The notes beneath the pieces were generated by a model, which had not been told where the DNA came from, did no database searches, and saw only the letters and a list, made by a program, of their open reading frames with translations. DNA of 64,000 bases from Mesobacillus subterraneus (lineage in GTDB: Bacteria; Bacillota; Bacilli; Bacillales; Cytobacillaceae). The stretch lies in assembly GCF_020524355.2 (NCBI RefSeq), contig NZ_CP129019.1, positions 2,542,001-2,606,000 of the forward strand, written 5' to 3'. Below, in pieces: positions 20,401-51,570 of the stretch (positions are counted from its first letter, which is position 1; each line of letters opens with the position of its first letter). The position numbers and the translations under genes are program-made.

Positions 20401-20520
20401 TCATTTTTATAGCGGAAATTTATTTTTTATAGCGAAAAAATATTTTTCATAGCGAATTTTTTCTTTTTATAGCGAAAAAATATTTTTCATAGCGAATTTT
20501 TCCTTTTTATAGCGAATTGG
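20401..20520. repeat. 20-bp tandem repeat, six units
   Basis: The core ATAGCG occurs at 20409, 20429, 20449, 20469, 20489 and 20509, an exact 20-bp period. Units alternate between TTTTTATAGCGAAAAAATA and TTTTTCATAGCGAATTTT types, so units 2-3 and 4-5 form a near-identical 40-bp pair. Strongly AT-rich, with A-tracts at helical (about two-turn) spacing. It lies between ylyA and lspA with no reading frame. Confidence 0.85.
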
Positions 20521-44129: not shown

Positions 44130-45590
44130 TTACATCTCCTCTATCGCCTCGCGTGCCACAATTCGGTCGTCAAAGTCGAATGTCCTGTCACCTATTTGCT
44201 GGTATGTTTCATGACCCTTCCCAGCAATCAGGATCACATCCCCAGATTTCGCATTTTTTATGGCATGCTGGATAGCTTCCTTCCTGTCAATGATCGAAGT
44301 ATAGACTTCGCCTTTGACTCCTTCTTCCATATCCTTAATGATTTCTGCCGGATCCTCGCTGCGGGGATTATCCGAGGTAAAAACAGCATCTGTAGAATAT
44401 TCACAAGCGATTTTCGCCATAAGCGGACGTTTCGTACGATCCCGATCACCACCACAGCCAACTACACAGAAAACTCTTTTCTGTGCAAATTGCTGAATTG
44501 TTTTCAGGACGTTTTCAAGACTGTCAGGGGTATGGGCATAGTCAACGATCACAGAGAAATCCTGTCCTGCATCGACTACTTCAAACCTACCAGAAACTCC
44601 TTTAACACCTTCAACAGATTCGATGATATCCTCTAAAGGTATGCCAGAAACGAGGGCTGCCCCGATGCTCGCAAGTACATTATAAATACTGAACTTTCCA
44701 ATCAGCTGGATATTAACCTTTTTCACGCCAAACGGGCTAACCAAATCAAATGAGGTTCCGCTGGCTGTCATCTCGATGTTGATTGCCTGCAAGTCGGCAT
44801 GGTTGTCAATCCCATATGTTAATATATGGGCAGTTGTCAGCATAGCAAATTCATCACTTGCAGGATCGTCTGAATTCAGGACCGCAAATTTCGGTTTCTC
44901 ATGGTTGAAGCCATTTCCAAGCTGTGAAAACAAAAGTCCCTTCGCTTTCCTGTATTCCTCCATTGTCTTGTGGTAGTCCAAATGGTCCTGCGTCAGGTTC
45001 GTGAAAACAGCAACATTGTAATCCGTCCCATGAACACGTCCATAAACAAGCGCATGCGAAGATACCTCCATTACCGCAGTATCAACGTTTTCGTCGACCA
45101 TTCTTTTGAACGTCTTTTGCAGAGTCAGGCTCTCCGGTGTTGTATTTTTCACTTCAAAGATTTGCTCGCCAATCTTTGTGTACATCGTACCGATCAGTCC
45201 GGTTTTCTGATCTGCATCCTTGAGAATCTGTTCAATAATATGGCTGGTCGTCGTCTTTCCATTCGTACCTGTGATTCCGATCATATGAAGCTTCTGGCTA
45301 GGCTGGTCGTAAAAGGCATCCGCAAGCACTGCCATCGCCCTTACAGTGTCCTTCACGACAATGACTGGTACATTCACTGGCAATTCTCGTTCGGCGAGAA
45401 CGGCTGCTGCTCCATTCTTCACGGCTGATTCAGCAAAATCGTGACCATCAACTGTATAACCTTTTATGCATATGAATAAACTTCCAGGAGTCACTCTGCG
45501 GTTATCATTTTCAATTGAAGTAATTTCGGGATTTTCTCCCTTATAATCCACGAACGGGTGCAAGTAACCGATCAATTCGTGTAATTTCAT
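44130..45590 (-). CDS. murE: UDP-N-acetylmuramoyl-tripeptide synthetase (meso-DAP adding)
   Basis: 486 aa from the ATG at 45590 ([12 protein letters not shown]) behind AGAGGA. N-domain (about 1-95, with [20 protein letters not shown]), the ATP P-loop [14 protein letters not shown] and the C-terminal domain with DNPR in [11 protein letters not shown], the motif specific for meso-diaminopimelate ligases. The carbamylated Lys region follows [15 protein letters not shown]. Confidence 0.97.
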
Positions 45591-45737
45591 AAATATCAAA
45601 TCCTCTCAAACAACATGGCGACTCTTATTTTACATGATTAGGCTGAAATTAGCCATTGTTGAGATGAAAAGAGCAAGCCCTTTTTACGTCAGTATGTTTC
45701 GGCCTGCTGCTCAACAAGTGTAATGGCCAGCAGTCTA

Positions 45738-45771
45738 AAGCAGGCGGCGGATGATTATCCTGCCGCCTCCT
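45738..45771 (-). other. Strong hairpin in the spoVD-murE gap
   Basis: Stem AGGCGGC-(A)-GGAT / ATCC-GCCGCCT with an AATC loop, extendable by GCAG/CTGC. It is only followed by TTTAG, so it is not a clear terminator. It may be a processing site, a partial attenuator or an RNA-stabilising end. Confidence 0.55.
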
Positions 45772-45808
45772 GCTCACCATGAGTTTCTGTTTTAATGATA
45801 GCTCTTAG

Positions 45809-47722
45809 TTAATCGTTCATATAAACTCTAATGGTTGACCCTTCCTTAATTTTTACCCCTGGTGAAGGAAGCTGTTTGACAACCTTCTCACCATCGCCTG
45901 CTATATCAAGCTTGAAGTTGATCAATTGTTGCCTTAGTTCCTGTTTGGATAAGCCAATCAGGTCAGGCACCTCCACCATAGGTGTATCGAGCCATGTCAA
46001 TTCCTTTTCAATCTGATCCTTCCGCGGAGGCACTTCCATAGCGCGCAGACTGTCCTCCATTATATCGCCAACGATCGGAGCTGCTACTACGCCACCAAAC
46101 TGTACTGTACCTTTCGGATTATCAACCGCAACATAAATAACGATTTGCGGGTCATCTGCAGGAGCGAAACCTATGAAGGAAACGATATGGTTATTTTCGA
46201 GGTAGCGGCCATCCTTCGCCTTCTGGGCTGTACCAGTTTTGCCGCCAACTCTGTAAGAGTCTACGTAAGCATTTTTACCTGAACCTTTAGCTACGACACT
46301 CTCAAGCGCATGCCTGATTTCTTTGGAAGTCTCTTCAGAAATCACCCTTCTTTTTGCTTGTGGAGATTTTTTCATGACAACCTCTCCAGTAACGGGATCA
46401 ATCAATTCTTTAGCAATAAACGGTGTATACAGTATTCCACCATTTACAGCTGCTGAAACAGCAGCGACTTGCTGGATTGGCGTGACAGAAACACCCTGAC
46501 CAAATGCAGTTGTTGCCTGCTCGACTGGACCGACTCTCTCCAGGTTGAACATAATCCCTTTTCCTTCCCCTTGAAGGTCGATTCCTGTTTTCTCGCCAAA
46601 ACCGAAATCCTTCACATATTTAAACAGTTTTTCTTTACCTAGCCTATCGCCAAGCTCAACGAATCCAGGGTTGCAGGAATTCTCGACAACTTCGAGGAAG
46701 GATTGGCTTCCGTGTCCTCCTTTTTTCCAGCAGCGGATTCTCGCTCCAGCTACTTCGACAGAACCGGAGTCATGGAAGTGATCTTTTTCAAGATCGACCT
46801 TTCCTTCCTGAAGTGCAGCGGCGAGGGTAACAATTTTGAAAGTAGAACCTGGTTCATACGTGCTCCAAATCGGCAAGTTCCGGTTGTAAACTTCCGGTGC
46901 TACATTACGGAAGTTAGCCGGATCAAAGTCAGGCCTGCTTGACATTGCAAGGATTTCCCCATTATTAGGATTCATGGCGACCGCAATGATGCCATCTGGA
47001 TTATATTTTGCTTGGGCAATATCAAGTTCTCGCTCGACGATGGTCTGCACCCTGCTGTCGATCGTCAGCTTCAGATCAAGCCCGTCCACCGGCGGCTCGT
47101 AGTCATCCGCCATATTGTTCATTCGCTGCTGTTTTGCGTCCGCATAAAATTGGACAGAACCTTTTTGCCCTTTTAATTCTTTATCATAGTAAAGTTCCAA
47201 TCCCATCAATCCCTGGTTATCAATTCCCGCAAACCCCAAGACATGGGACAGGTAACTGCCGTATGGATAATGGCGCTTGGAATCCTCACCGATGTATACA
47301 CCTTTGATATCGAGTGCCCTGATTTCCTTCGCTTTCTCGTGAGAAATCTTTCTGCCTTCTGGAATTCTCTCAATCATCGCTCTTTTTGTAATATGTTGAT
47401 AGGCCTTCTCTTTTGACATATTTAAAGCCTTCGCTAATATTTCCGCTGCAGCCTCGGGATCCTCCACCTGGCGCGGCACCACGTAAACAGTCGGTGCACT
47501 AATATTCGTTGCGAGCGCCACTCCATTCCTATCCGTTATTTCCCCGCGCTGTGGCTCAAATGGGACGTTTCTGCTCCACGAATCCTTCGCCTTTCCTGTC
47601 AAAAAATCTCCTAGCATGAATTGCACATACCCAAGCCGGACATCTATGATGAAAAACACCAAAATTCCAACCACCAGAACGAGAGCCAGCCTTTTTCTGA
47701 CCGTCACGTTTGATACACGCAT
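45809..47722 (-). CDS. spoVD: SpoVD, sporulation-specific class B penicillin-binding protein
   Basis: 637 aa from the ATG at 47722 (MRVSNVTVRKRLALVLV) with GGGAGG upstream. One membrane helix, PBP dimerisation domain (GEITDRNGVALATNIS), and transpeptidase motifs STFK, SCN (ENSCNPGF) and KTGTAQ. One C-terminal PASTA domain begins at VEVPDLIGLSKQEL. Crosslinks spore cortex peptidoglycan with SpoVE. It has its own sigma-E-type promoter and is cut off from pbpB by a terminator and a repeat array. Confidence 0.95.
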   Translation of the reverse strand: MRVSNVTVRKRLALVLVVGILVFFIIDVRLGYVQFMLGDFLTGKAKDSWSRNVPFEPQRGEITDRNGVALATNISAPTVYVVPRQVEDPEAAAEILAKALNMSKEKAYQHITKRAMIERIPEGRKISHEKAKEIRALDIKGVYIGEDSKRHYPYGSYLSHVLGFAGIDNQGLMGLELYYDKELKGQKGSVQFYADAKQQRMNNMADDYEPPVDGLDLKLTIDSRVQTIVERELDIAQAKYNPDGIIAVAMNPNNGEILAMSSRPDFDPANFRNVAPEVYNRNLPIWSTYEPGSTFKIVTLAAALQEGKVDLEKDHFHDSGSVEVAGARIRCWKKGGHGSQSFLEVVENSCNPGFVELGDRLGKEKLFKYVKDFGFGEKTGIDLQGEGKGIMFNLERVGPVEQATTAFGQGVSVTPIQQVAAVSAAVNGGILYTPFIAKELIDPVTGEVVMKKSPQAKRRVISEETSKEIRHALESVVAKGSGKNAYVDSYRVGGKTGTAQKAKDGRYLENNHIVSFIGFAPADDPQIVIYVAVDNPKGTVQFGGVVAAPIVGDIMEDSLRAMEVPPRKDQIEKELTWLDTPMVEVPDLIGLSKQELRQQLINFKLDIAGDGEKVVKQLPSPGVKIKEGSTIRVYMND

Positions 47723-47788
47723 ATAATGAACGAACCTCCCTCTATAGTTGATCCAATAGTAAACTGAGAAACTCTCAGACACTCGTTC

Positions 47789-47819
47789 AAATATATGCTT
47801 GTACGAATTCGAATATAAC
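47789..47819 (-). promoter_or_regulatory. Sigma-E-type promoter of spoVD
   Basis: -35 GTTATATT (47812-47819), 14-bp spacer, -10 CATATATT (from 47797 down), close to the sigma-E consensus KMATATT-N14-CATACANT. It is about 65 bp before the spoVD ATG. B. subtilis spoVD is known to be sigma-E dependent. Confidence 0.75.
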
Positions 47820-47890
47820 AAGAAGTGGAGACAAGCTGAGGTTTGTTTAGGACGTGGAGATTCTACTGCCTTGGAAAATTTTCAGGGGAA

Positions 47891-48939
47891 TTTTCGAACC
47901 TGAAGCTACTTTATACAAAGTGAGGAGTTCAGACTAGGATTTTGTCCGAACCTGATGCTACTTCGGACAAAACGAGGAGACCCGAACACGATTTTGTCTG
48001 AACCTGATGTGACTTCGGACAAAACAAAGAGATCCGACTGCGATTTTGTCCGAACCTGATGTGACTTCGGACAAATCGAGGAGACCCGGCCACTATTTTG
48101 TCTGAACCTGATGCGACTTCGGACAAAACGAGAAGAAGAGTACACGTTTTTGTCCGAACCTGATGCTACTTCGGACAAAATGAGGAGACCCAACCACGAT
48201 TTTTGTCCGAACCTGATGCGACTTCGGACAAAACGAGGAGACCCGGCCACTATTTTGTCTGAACCTGATGCGACTTCGGACAAAACGAGAAGAAGCGTAC
48301 ACGTTTTTGTCCGAACCTGATGCGACTTCGGACAAAATGAGGAGACCCAACCACGATTTTGTCCGAACCTGATGCGACTTCGAACAAAACAAGGAGACCC
48401 GGCCACTATTTTGTCTGAACCTGATGCTACTTCGGACAAAACGAGAAGAACCGAACACATTTTTGTCCGAACCTAGTGCTACTTCGGACAAAATAAGAAG
48501 AACCGAACACGTTTTTGTCCGAACCTGGTGCCACTTCGGACAAAACAAGGAGACCCGGCCACGATTTTGTCTGAACCTGATGTGACTTCGGACAAAACGA
48601 GTAGAACCGAACACGTTTTTGTCCGAACCTGATGCTACTTCGGACAAAATGAGGAGACCCAACCACGATTTTTGTCCGAACCTGATGCGACTTCGGACAA
48701 AACGAGGAGACCCGGCCATGATTTTGTCGAACCTGGTGCTACTTCGGACAAAACGAGTAGAATCGAACACGATTTTGTCCGAACCTGATGCTACTTCGGA
48801 CAAAACGAGGAGACCCGGCCATGATTTTGTCTGAACCTGATGTGACTTCGGACAAAACGAGGAGACCCGGCCATGATTTTGTCGAACCTGGTGCTACTTC
48901 GGACAAAACGAGTAGAATCGAACACGATTTTGTCCGAAC
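47891..48939. repeat. 52-bp tandem repeat array, 19 full units, between pbpB and spoVD
   Basis: Units run 47940-48927: fifteen of 52 bp, two of 53 and two of 51, total 988 bp. A decayed unit precedes (47891-47939) and a 12-bp half unit follows. Each unit is TTTTGTCCGAA, an 11-bp loop (CCTGATGCTAC type), TTCGGACAAAA, then a 19-bp spacer, so every unit can fold as an 11-bp hairpin. Spacers fall in about three types (ending CCGGCCACTA/TGA, GTACACGT or GAACACGT/GA, and CCAACCACGA) that recur as a trimer of 156 bp. The unit has no stop in any minus frame, which yields long frames with RSRIRFGQN, PKSHQVRTK and SEVASGSDK; these are three frames of the same DNA and I do not call them genes. Confidence 0.95.
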
Positions 48940-48982
48940 TTTGGACTTCTGCGAATCAAAATATTAGGAGCGACAACAAAAC

Positions 48983-49024
48983 AAAAAAAAACAGAGGCAG
49001 GGCTCACCCGCCCACTTCCTCTGT
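48983..49024 (-). terminator. Intrinsic terminator of the mraZ-rsmH-ftsL-pbpB unit
   Basis: Outer stem ACAGAGG / CCTCTGT and inner stem GGGC / GCCC on the minus strand, then TTTTTTTTT. The stem overlaps the pbpB stop codon. It would end transcription before the repeat array. Confidence 0.85.
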
Positions 49025-51214
49025 CTCTTCATTTTCTTCCTCAGTTTTTAATGAATTCTCAAATTGCTGCAGCGGGGTTTCCAGCTCGACAATCAAATTT
49101 TCACCTTCATTGATTGGCAATCCTGGCTTAAGACTTTGTTTTGTAACATAACCGCTGCCGGCTTTGTTTAACTTAATCCCTGTAATTTGCGCCAGCTTCA
49201 AGACGTCCCTGAGTGACCAGTCTGTCATGTCAGGGTATGTCATGACTCCCGATGACTTGATAAAGACTTTCTCTCCCTCGAGAGCCATTATCTCTGCCTT
49301 TGGCAACTGCTCCTCAACCTGGCTGCCATCTCCTATAATCACTGTTTCAAACCCTTTAGATTCTAGCAAACTCTTTGCTTCTCCTGAATTCATGCCAGTT
49401 ACATCAGGAACCTTTATCGAATCAGCTTTTTCCATTGAAGCAGGTTTAATATTCAAATACTGAAGACTGCTCTTCATCACAGATTTAAAAATCATGGATG
49501 TAGGAATCGATCCTTTAAAATAATGGTCGATTTCCGGCTGTTGAACGGCTACATAAACGATAAGTTTAGGGTCATCTTTTGGAGCCATCCCCAGGAATGA
49601 AAACAGGTAATCGCTCGCCCCTGCTAAATAACTGCCGTTAGCTGTTAAGTTCGCAGTACCAGTTTTACCAGCAACCTCGTAACCTTCGATTGCGTATGAT
49701 TTACCAGTACCATGTTCACCAGTTACAACTGTACCTAAAACATCTCTCACCTTTTTTGCTGTTTCAGCGGATATAGGCTGCCCAACAGACTTCGGCTCTT
49801 CCTGCTTGATCACTTCACCTGTGTTTGGATCGACTATCTTATCGATCACTCGCGGTTTCATCATCTTCCCATCATTTGCTACTGCTGTTGCGGCTTGGAT
49901 CATCTGTATTGGCGTCACAGTAGTACCCTGTCCGTAAGATGTCGTTATTTTTTCAATCGGCCATCTATAGACAATCGTTCCGGCTGTTTCATTAGGAAGG
50001 TCGATGCCTGTGGGCTCGTCAAACCCAAAATCAGTAAGGTACTCACGGAATTTTTCTGTACCGATTTTTTCATTTACTAACTTTGCCACTGCTACGTTCG
50101 AGGAACGCTGAATTCCTTCAAGATAGGTAATTGAACCCCATCCGCTGCCGTTATGGTCGCGAATCGGCTTTGAGTTTTCAGTAACTTTATAGGAACCAGA
50201 TTTATACCACTCATTAGGATTCCATTTATTCTCCTCAATTGCCGCTGCAAGCGTGAAGATTTTCATCGTCGAACCTGGCTCAATTGGTGTTTCGACCACC
50301 TCGTTATGCCAGCTGTTATCGAGCCCTTCCCTTGTCGTCGGGTGGAAGCTCGGTCGTTGAGCCATCCCGAGAATATCACCAGTCTTCGGATCAGCCACGA
50401 CTGCAATGATTTTCTTTGGCTTGTATTCCTTGTCTACACGATCGACTGCATCCTCCACGAACGTCTGGATTTTTTTATCAATCGTTAAAAAAACATTGCT
50501 GCCATCTTCGGCAGGTGTGACTTTTTTCTCTCCATCAGGTAAAAGGAAGCCCCATAAATCACTTTCGAATGAAAGAGAGCCATTTTTACCAGTCAATTCC
50601 TTATTAAGTGTTTTTTCTATCCCGAGCTGTCCAGAAGTAACCGTTTTATCGTCCTCAGTTTCTTCCTTTTCCACAAATCCGACTAAGTGGGATGAGAATA
50701 CACCATTCGGATAGAACCTCTTTGAATCTCGTAAAAAAGTAATCCCCGGCAGCTTCTCCTCTTCAATCTCACGTTTGGCCTGATGGGAAATGTCGCGGCC
50801 GGCTTTTCCGAATTCAACCTGCCAAGCGCCTTGTTTTGTCAGTCTTTTATATATTTCCGACTCACTCATATCAATATACTTAGCAAGCACGGCTGCTGTT
50901 TTCGCAGGATTGCTCACATGCTTTGGTTTCTTTTTATTCGTTGTCACAGATTCATTAAGGATAGCGACAAGTGTGTAGGCTGTTGTATCCTCAGCAACAA
51001 CTTCGCCTTTTCGGTCAAAAATCGTTCCTCTAGTCGCCTCGATTATTTTTTCATTTGAGTACTTTTGCTGCGCCCTTGCAGCCAGGGCTTGTCCATGCAC
51101 TTCCCCGGTGACCTGGATTGAAATAAACCTGAAAATCAAGATAAAAAAGAGCAGGCTGAATATTACGAATAATACCGCTGCTCCTGCATTCATATTTGGC
51201 TGTTTCTTGATCAT
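49004..51214 (-). CDS. pbpB: PBP2B, septal class B penicillin-binding protein (FtsI)
   Basis: 736 aa. Membrane helix at about 12-33, dimerisation domain (EATRGTIFDRKGEVVAEDTT), transpeptidase motifs STMK (EPGSTMKIF), SSN (QRSSNVAVAKL) and KTGTAN, and two C-terminal PASTA domains (from KVPDVTGMNSGEAKS and from MTYPDMTDWSLRDV). It ends in a Glu-rich tail. Essential septal transpeptidase. Overlaps ftsL stop as TGATG. Confidence 0.96.
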   Translation of the reverse strand: MIKKQPNMNAGAAVLFVIFSLLFFILIFRFISIQVTGEVHGQALAARAQQKYSNEKIIEATRGTIFDRKGEVVAEDTTAYTLVAILNESVTTNKKKPKHVSNPAKTAAVLAKYIDMSESEIYKRLTKQGAWQVEFGKAGRDISHQAKREIEEEKLPGITFLRDSKRFYPNGVFSSHLVGFVEKEETEDDKTVTSGQLGIEKTLNKELTGKNGSLSFESDLWGFLLPDGEKKVTPAEDGSNVFLTIDKKIQTFVEDAVDRVDKEYKPKKIIAVVADPKTGDILGMAQRPSFHPTTREGLDNSWHNEVVETPIEPGSTMKIFTLAAAIEENKWNPNEWYKSGSYKVTENSKPIRDHNGSGWGSITYLEGIQRSSNVAVAKLVNEKIGTEKFREYLTDFGFDEPTGIDLPNETAGTIVYRWPIEKITTSYGQGTTVTPIQMIQAATAVANDGKMMKPRVIDKIVDPNTGEVIKQEEPKSVGQPISAETAKKVRDVLGTVVTGEHGTGKSYAIEGYEVAGKTGTANLTANGSYLAGASDYLFSFLGMAPKDDPKLIVYVAVQQPEIDHYFKGSIPTSMIFKSVMKSSLQYLNIKPASMEKADSIKVPDVTGMNSGEAKSLLESKGFETVIIGDGSQVEEQLPKAEIMALEGEKVFIKSSGVMTYPDMTDWSLRDVLKLAQITGIKLNKAGSGYVTKQSLKPGLPINEGENLIVELETPLQQFENSLKTEEENEETEEVGG

Positions 51215-51570
51215 CAGTTTTCCACACCTTTAACATTGTCTTCATTCAATGTTAAACCGAGCTTTTCTGTTACCTTCTTAATTCTTTCATAGGTACTTAA
51301 TTCGCTAATCTGGATTTCAAGATCACTGTTAATCTTTTGCTGCTCCTGAATATCGCCTTCAATGATTTGGATTTCTTTGTTGACTTCGTAAATGGCTGCC
51401 TGTTTTGAAACCATGAATGTTGCGCCGAAGCAAACAATTGTCCCGAAAACAAACATCAGGATTTTTTCGCCGGGCGTTAATATCGAATTGCGTTTCGCCG
51501 GTGCTTTTGCCGGTACCTGAACAGTTTGCTGTTGCTGCTCTTGCTGCAATTTTCTAGCCAGATTGCTCAT
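51214..51570 (-). CDS. ftsL: Cell division protein FtsL
   Basis: 118 aa from the second of two adjacent ATGs (51570), better placed behind AGGAGGG. Basic, Gln-rich cytoplasmic tail (QQEQQQQ), one membrane helix (about 37-57) and an extracellular leucine-zipper coiled coil (about 60-105). Unstable partner of DivIC and DivIB that regulates septal synthesis. Confidence 0.93.
   Translation of the reverse strand: MSNLARKLQQEQQQQTVQVPAKAPAKRNSILTPGEKILMFVFGTIVCFGATFMVSKQAAIYEVNKEIQIIEGDIQEQQKINSDLEIQISELSTYERIKKVTEKLGLTLNEDNVKGVEN

Follow-up and report, generated by a model that had tools for sequence, protein, structure and literature searches.

A tandem array on a fixed TGTC-N19-GACA-N25 lattice between pbpB and spoVD of Mesobacillus subterraneus, and its possible role as a DNA platform for a putative dimeric protein

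In Mesobacillus subterraneus, a member of the Bacillales, about 1 kb of tandem repeats separates a pbpB-type gene from spoVD. What are these repeats, is their sequence constrained, and would they act as DNA or as RNA? The window analysed here is a whole stretch of 64,000 nucleotides and sits in a single 4.79-Mb contig. Tandem repeats of this unit length occur in approximately 30% of the Bacillus species studied by Subirana and Messeguer in 2021, with a function described as not known (PMC8161180). In that work 49 repeats of 51-53 nt were found in B. selenatarsenatis, and this species was reported to have them in common with B. boroniphilus and B. subterraneus; the 52-nt repeats are stated to lack sequence conservation, a short signal and its reverse often occur in one repeat, and a protein that polymerises, stabilisation of the nucleoid or small RNAs were suggested as roles (PMC8161180). 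The same paper cites a 2020 publication on 52-nt Bacillus satellites, and the accessible part of an earlier survey contains nothing on 52-nt repeats (PMC6749651).

A preliminary description of the locus had recognised 19 hairpin-type units of 52 bp between pbpB and spoVD. Direct inspection of the sequence, TRF and unit parsing confirm both number and placement: 19 complete dyad units of about 52 bp occupy 47940-48908. TRF reports a repeat at 47895-48939 with a period of 52, 20.1 copies and a score of 1351, together with a second period of 156 bp. According to unit parsing, each unit is composed of TTTTGTCYGAA-N11-TTCGGACAAAA followed by roughly 19 bp of spacer. Two of the 19 units are short of one left-arm base, a few steps measure 51 or 53, and six of the 19 have CT in place of CC in the left arm. 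Within 48670-48908, the two units with TTTTGTCGAA (one base lost, 18 gap) look copied inside the array together with their neighbours, matching the 156-bp period. The features of the junction, in window coordinates, are as follows.

45809-47725, minus strand: spoVD, downstream of the array (TIGR02214, 872.8 bits, cut-off 688)
47783-47822, minus strand: conserved promoter-like block upstream of spoVD (CTTGTTATATTCGAATTCGTACAAGCATATATTTGAACGA), by direct reading
47891-47939: degenerate partial unit at the spoVD-side edge, by direct reading (TRF start at 47895)
47940-48908: 19 complete units on the lattice TGTC-N19-GACA-N25 (18 gap in the units at 48721 and 48876), from sequence, TRF and unit parsing
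48928-48939: left-arm remnant TTTTGTCCGAA at the pbpB-side edge, with divergence beyond (last row of unit parsing)
48983-49023, minus strand: intrinsic terminator at the pbpB end, between gene and array, a CAGAGG..CCTCTG stem (49013-48995) with T run, coordinates read from the sequence
49004-51214, minus strand: pbpB-type gene, upstream of the array (PBP family matches, below every equivalog cut-off)

murE also lies downstream of the array. For the pbpB terminator, RNAfold gives -23.9 kcal/mol over 55 nt around the stem. The core ACAAGCATATA of the promoter-like block, which may be a sigma-E promoter, is found in 13 of 14 printed junction sequences and is missing in one (L155). As a terminator closes pbpB and a promoter-like block precedes spoVD, the array probably lies between transcription units and outside an mRNA leader.

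The dyad is not confined to this junction. In the own genome the exact dyad pattern has 15 forward matches, far above chance, and the pattern with up to three mismatches 263, the backward-read control giving none in either case, and at least 21 sites carry arrays. The arrays of this genome share a common lattice; their inner arms differ, with at least four stem classes (TGTCYGAA, TGTCCGTCAT, TGTCAAGAA and TGTCCGATAGAG), the third of which shows poor arm pairing on direct reading. With up to two mismatches the dyad occurs in 17 of 21 genomes of the genus, and two of the four negative ones carry the lattice (157 matches in G002, 63 in G015); the other two, G008 and G012, were outside the order sample searched for the lattice. 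A stricter dyad pattern matched 13 of 61 relatives, all in the genus, and none of 40 genomes outside it. The unit is thus present both elsewhere in the genome and in relatives, and the absence from both, with random stem changes, that the preliminary description had named as evidence for a neutral local expansion was not observed. The proposed tie to division and cell wall genes, in contrast, we have dropped, since many other sites carry arrays: the pbpB-spoVD junction is one of at least 21 in this genome and is empty in two genomes of the genus. After merging of overlapping loci of one array, 47 distinct genus arrays and three single units were kept; among 417 steps in these arrays 397 measure 52, 11 measure 53, six 51, one 50 and two 103.

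A scan of named genome contigs yielded 40 stretches, mainly from Bacillus sp. ISL strains, Mesobacillus boroniphilus, M. selenatarsenatis and one Cytobacillus oceanisediminis strain. Two stretches named Chryseobacterium sp. ISL-80 (L060, L093) carry such arrays, and this record is probably misnamed or mixed. A Bacteroidales MAG (L067) and a Prevotellaceae MAG (L071) have one pattern place each and no array, probably chance matches or ordinary hairpins. Phages and plasmids contained no similar DNA at E 1e-5, so that a phage or plasmid origin is not supported.

Do relatives carry an array at the same place? A query with the PbpB C-terminus found matches in all 61 relatives, and loci were obtained for 30. 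Within the genus, the pbpB-spoVD junction carries an array in 14 of 21 genomes. In two genomes the junction is empty, with spoVD 150 and 194 bp away; that of G008 has 466 bp without dyads and that of G004 only decayed dyads by eye; G005 and G012 stop at contig edges and G015 is unparsed. Outside the genus, no junction array was present in the five loci parsed of nine. Copy number, compared here across species, varies from 2 to 17 units at this one orthologous junction. Because such arrays recur at the same junction in 14 of the 21 genomes, six of them single-contig, an assembly artefact is an unlikely source of the array. When the 14 junction arrays are compared, half-sites are 94% identical, centres (loops) 68% and spacers 53% (minimum 16%), and three species have a different spacer type around the same dyad.

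The same contrast is found inside arrays. We measured variation as the minority frequency between units, in 34 perfect-register segments with 325 units from the genus and in nine segments with 78 units from other genera. In the genus it is 0.012 for the TGTC/GACA core, 0.008 for inner positions 2-4, 0.168 for inner position 1 (Y/R), 0.093 for inner positions 5-6, 0.145 for the centre, 0.046 for the three spacer bases adjacent to the core and 0.177 for the mid-spacer. The corresponding values in other genera are 0.022 (core), 0.009 (inner 2-4), 0.090 (inner 1), 0.022 (inner 5-6), 0.125 (centre), 0.071 (core-adjacent spacer) and 0.144 (mid-spacer). Arrays were gathered with core-containing patterns, which favours core conservation to some degree. 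Half-sites are the same across arrays with different spacers, and loops and spacers resemble each other more inside an array than from one array to another. The earlier statement that stems are better conserved than spacers is therefore correct, both within arrays and across species, and so is the constraint on the dyads that it implied.

The geometry of the dyads extends far beyond the genus. Of 397 genomes sampled from the order, 69 contain the pattern TGTC-N19-GACA-N25-TGTC-N19-GACA. They represent 30 of 135 genera, and one genome holds as many as 584 matches, against a single match in one genome for the backward control. In a sample of the class it occurs in nine of 398 genomes; outside the order there are three of 360, all from one family. 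Other spacings are rare. A pattern with N18/N26 was found in one of 397 genomes (G192), a comparison that is unfair to 51-bp arrays and whose backward control, positive in four genomes (1, 2, 1 and 5 matches), exceeds the pattern itself. N20-21 with N25 is present in two of 199 genomes and N17-18 with N25 in five, the backward control being positive in one genome each, while 38 of these same 199 genomes have the N19 lattice. A gap of 19 is therefore not universal. Three genomes (G128, G218 and G192) have 22, 11 and 9 matches to TGTC-N18-GACA-N25, that is, a period of 51, and 0, 2 and 0 matches to N19; the 18-gap matches in these genomes fall on several contigs among the matches listed. Gap length thus seems to be set for a whole genome and not array by array, and a change common to many arrays of one genome points to a factor acting in trans. 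Inside arrays, N19 was counted in 418 of 426 cases in the genus and in 153 of 161 in other genera, a count biased toward 19 because the arrays were picked by N19; N25 was counted in 424 of 446 and 138 of 169 cases, respectively.

The lattice leaves part of the published class unexplained, since just five of 27 published 52-nt consensus units fit TGTC-N19-GACA exactly and seven with at most one mismatch; other half-sites exist there. A test for dyad symmetry by reflection, applied to these units and to the window unit, gave p<=0.05 in eight of 28 rows, with 0.18 for the window unit. We had also considered an alternation of TTTTGTC and GACAAAA every 26 bp in all species and rejected it, as this is true of the genus consensus only and the outer three bases pair in 10-12 of 31 rows.

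Where do the arrays sit relative to transcription units? With open reading frames called by length alone, 37 of 75 arrays lie between co-directional, 20 between convergent and eight between divergent genes, and 10 lie at contig edges. A strong terminator separates gene and array at 44 of 70 gene ends as compared to four of 39 gene starts; when look-alike sites are collapsed (58 sites), the counts are 40 of 62 and three of 36. This survey covers gene-array gaps giving 60-400 bases (109 sides, 98 after collapse). Arrays therefore tend to lie beyond the terminator of a neighbouring gene.

Exact spacing, half-sites that vary little between units, a degenerate base in the middle of the arm, intergenic position and the genomes with another gap together favour a symmetric dimer on duplex DNA. 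We consider it about an even call that the array serves, at the level of DNA, as a lattice of binding sites for a putative dimeric protein. Each 52-bp unit would then be one dyad, with half-sites (core TGTC outward, here TTTTGTCYGAA) 23 bp apart from centre to centre. The half-site may resemble the Spo0A box. A sequence-specific putative protein of two-fold symmetry, encoded elsewhere in the genome, would most likely bind each dyad. Fifty-two bp correspond to about five turns of B-DNA, and the fixed phasing suggests that the putative protein lines up along the array, possibly by oligomerisation. As the arrays tend to lie in gaps between transcription units, such a complex would act on the chromosome and not on mRNA; nucleoid anchoring, insulation or control of supercoiling are candidate roles. 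Recombination within the array may turn over units and even out loops and spacers locally, while selection would preserve the half-sites and their spacing in each unit. That a protein binds the DNA dyad had already been raised as an idea in the preliminary description; the constraint on the dyads supports the idea, binding itself being deduced from sequence.

The arms of the dyads bear on a different explanation, which we judge unlikely but worth keeping: the units may be hairpins, either in RNA (for processing, stability or as an RNA sponge) or in single-stranded DNA of the lagging strand, with selection on pairing. We compared 31 array consensuses, 30 from genomes of other genera (one row each, some of these genomes sharing a genus) and one row from Mesobacillus; three additional arrays, from loci already represented, were omitted. 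Watson-Crick pairing is seen at inner pairs 1-5 in 27, 21, 28, 28 and 26 rows, the shuffled means being 21.0, 10.7, 9.2, 8.8 and 12.1, and none of 2000 shuffles, which leave genome relatedness in, reaches the observed values. Inner pair 6 is Watson-Crick in 18 of 31 rows (reached by five of 2000 shuffles), pairs 7-9 show no excess, and three or four pair types occur per inner position. Inner arms thus covary across genera, as a hairpin predicts, while one mid-arm pair is free to mismatch: at inner pair 1, 462 units of the 47 genus arrays have C-G 207 times, C-A 119 times, T-G 100 times and T-A 28 times, and the T-A double change is not enriched (28 observed, 41 expected under independent arms). 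Tolerated mismatches in mid-stem and a double change that is not favoured are more easily reconciled with a protein site that has one degenerate base than with a helix under selection. The previous argument that the CC to CT change preserves a G-U pair in plus-strand RNA is weak, as T-G and C-A are both common at this pair and as the flanking genes are read from the minus strand, where the change gives C.A. Oriented by the genes, co-directional genus arrays do lean towards RNA, with G-U exceeding A-C in 16 of 26, the reverse in seven and three ties (122 G-U and 56 A-C cells). No such lean is seen in other genera, where 11 arrays gave three against five with three ties for a stem of TGTC+5 (12 G-U and 27 A-C cells) and four against five with two ties for TGTC+6. 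A larger excess, 24 against seven arrays with six ties (n=37), was discarded as confounded, two loop positions having been counted as stem. The loop, taken in its orientation CCTGG..AC, runs against the direction of the genes in 20 of 26 genus arrays in co-directional settings; orthologues enter this count more than once. Satellites are transcribed in B. coagulans according to the accessible part of a companion paper (PMC8625621), which suits a hairpin in RNA; the tendency of arrays to sit outside transcription units does not, and a scan of 45500-51500 against Rfam gave two matches, both far under gathering scores. Nor does a hairpin need an exact loop length, yet gaps of 18, 20 and 21 are rare outside a few genomes.

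Three further explanations were considered. A tyrosine recombinase core site consists of two inverted arms of roughly 10 bp around a centre of 7-11 bp. Dyads that serve as core sites of a site-specific recombinase, with recombination between units making and evening largely selfish arrays, would account for the layout of arm, centre and arm at fixed total length, for centres that differ less inside an array than among arrays and for 2-17 units at one orthologous site. We nevertheless think this improbable, because sites spaced by 52 bp lie too near each other to recombine within the same molecule, because arrays stand at the same place in 14 species and because inner arms differ between arrays of one genome. 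A REP/BIME-like element mobilised by a RAYT (Y1 transposase) would likewise be intergenic, palindromic, of high copy number and with alternating half-sites, as the accessible part of the literature on BIMEs describes (PMC2817692). Y1_Tnp (PF01797) is absent from the own genome and from G006, which have 519 and 506 lattice pairs, and the domain does not track arrays (18 of 20 genomes rich in arrays have it, as do 16 of 20 without arrays); on direct reading the unit has no GT(A/G)G head. On the distribution of PF01797 we therefore reject the link to RAYT, unless a diverged RAYT escaped the profile, and rate the element itself as very improbable. A neutral local satellite, produced by slippage and unequal crossing-over only, agrees with loops and spacers that are more alike within arrays, with the higher-order period of 156 bp and with the variable number of units. 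It has hardly any probability in our view, since the TGTC/GACA core varies about 15-fold less than mid-spacers within arrays, the same half-sites occur across arrays with different spacers and the same lattice occurs across genera; core constraint and cross-genus lattice contradict it, subject to the bias of collection by the core.

Some facts weigh against the DNA platform for a putative dimer as well. A neutral repeat, too, would be tolerated between transcription units, and arm pairing with compensatory changes is equally predicted by a hairpin. With at least four inner-stem classes on one lattice in the own genome, one protein would read little more than TGTC, which does not account for inner arms that are complementary across genera. 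It is mainly the covariation of the arms and the presence of several stem classes in one genome that lack an explanation, and they keep the hairpin in play as a rival.

As a wider and tentative proposal, which we put forward as possible though somewhat doubtful, TGTC-N19-GACA-N25 arrays could be the footprint of a putative Bacillales chromosome-organising or insulator protein: one trans factor of fixed geometry would maintain many phased platforms between transcription units, and this factor would have been lost and gained across genera and would have changed its geometry from 19 to 18 genome-wide in a few lineages. A protein of this sort, should it exist, could represent a novel type of bacterial chromosome-structure protein, and species without the lattice or with an 18 gap provide natural controls.

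How does the array compare with known systems? CRISPR arrays consist of regular repeats of partial dyad symmetry, separated by spacers whose length is constant, and in these respects the present array is alike. It differs in that its spacers recur and drift within the array, where CRISPR has unique spacers between near-identical repeats, and in that the genome has at least 21 array sites. BIME/REP elements with their RAYT, as far as described in the accessible part of PMC2817692, share intergenic, high-copy palindromic units in alternating orientation; the arrays differ by an exact 52-bp tandem period, by the lack of a GT(A/G)G head and by an own genome without a cognate RAYT. The tandem repeats of 20-21 nt in Bacillus (PMC8161180), 30 of which are carried by B. 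selenatarsenatis, are near whole helical turns, of variable sequence and from the same group, but span about two turns where the 52-bp units span five. A second tandem array in the window, at 20403-20518, with a period of 20 bp, core ATAGCGAA and variable flanks, probably belongs to this published 20-21-nt class. The pbpB-spoVD array itself belongs to the known class of 52-nt Bacillus tandem repeats of constant size and variable sequence (PMC8161180): the period is 52, the repeats are non-coding, of 51-53 nt with at least four copies and of species-specific sequence, several families of equal length and different sequence occur per genome, and the host group is among the carriers (PMC8161180, Tables 1 and 4). 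The lattice TGTC-N19-GACA-N25 is not stated in the main text of that paper and was not found in the literature searched; new relative to this main text are, besides the lattice, the covariation of the arms, the 18-gap genomes, the position beyond terminators and the orthologous presence. A common half-site that varies little from unit to unit, an exact geometry and an intergenic position recast the puzzle of these satellites as a more specific question: which protein binds TGTC-N19-GACA arrays?
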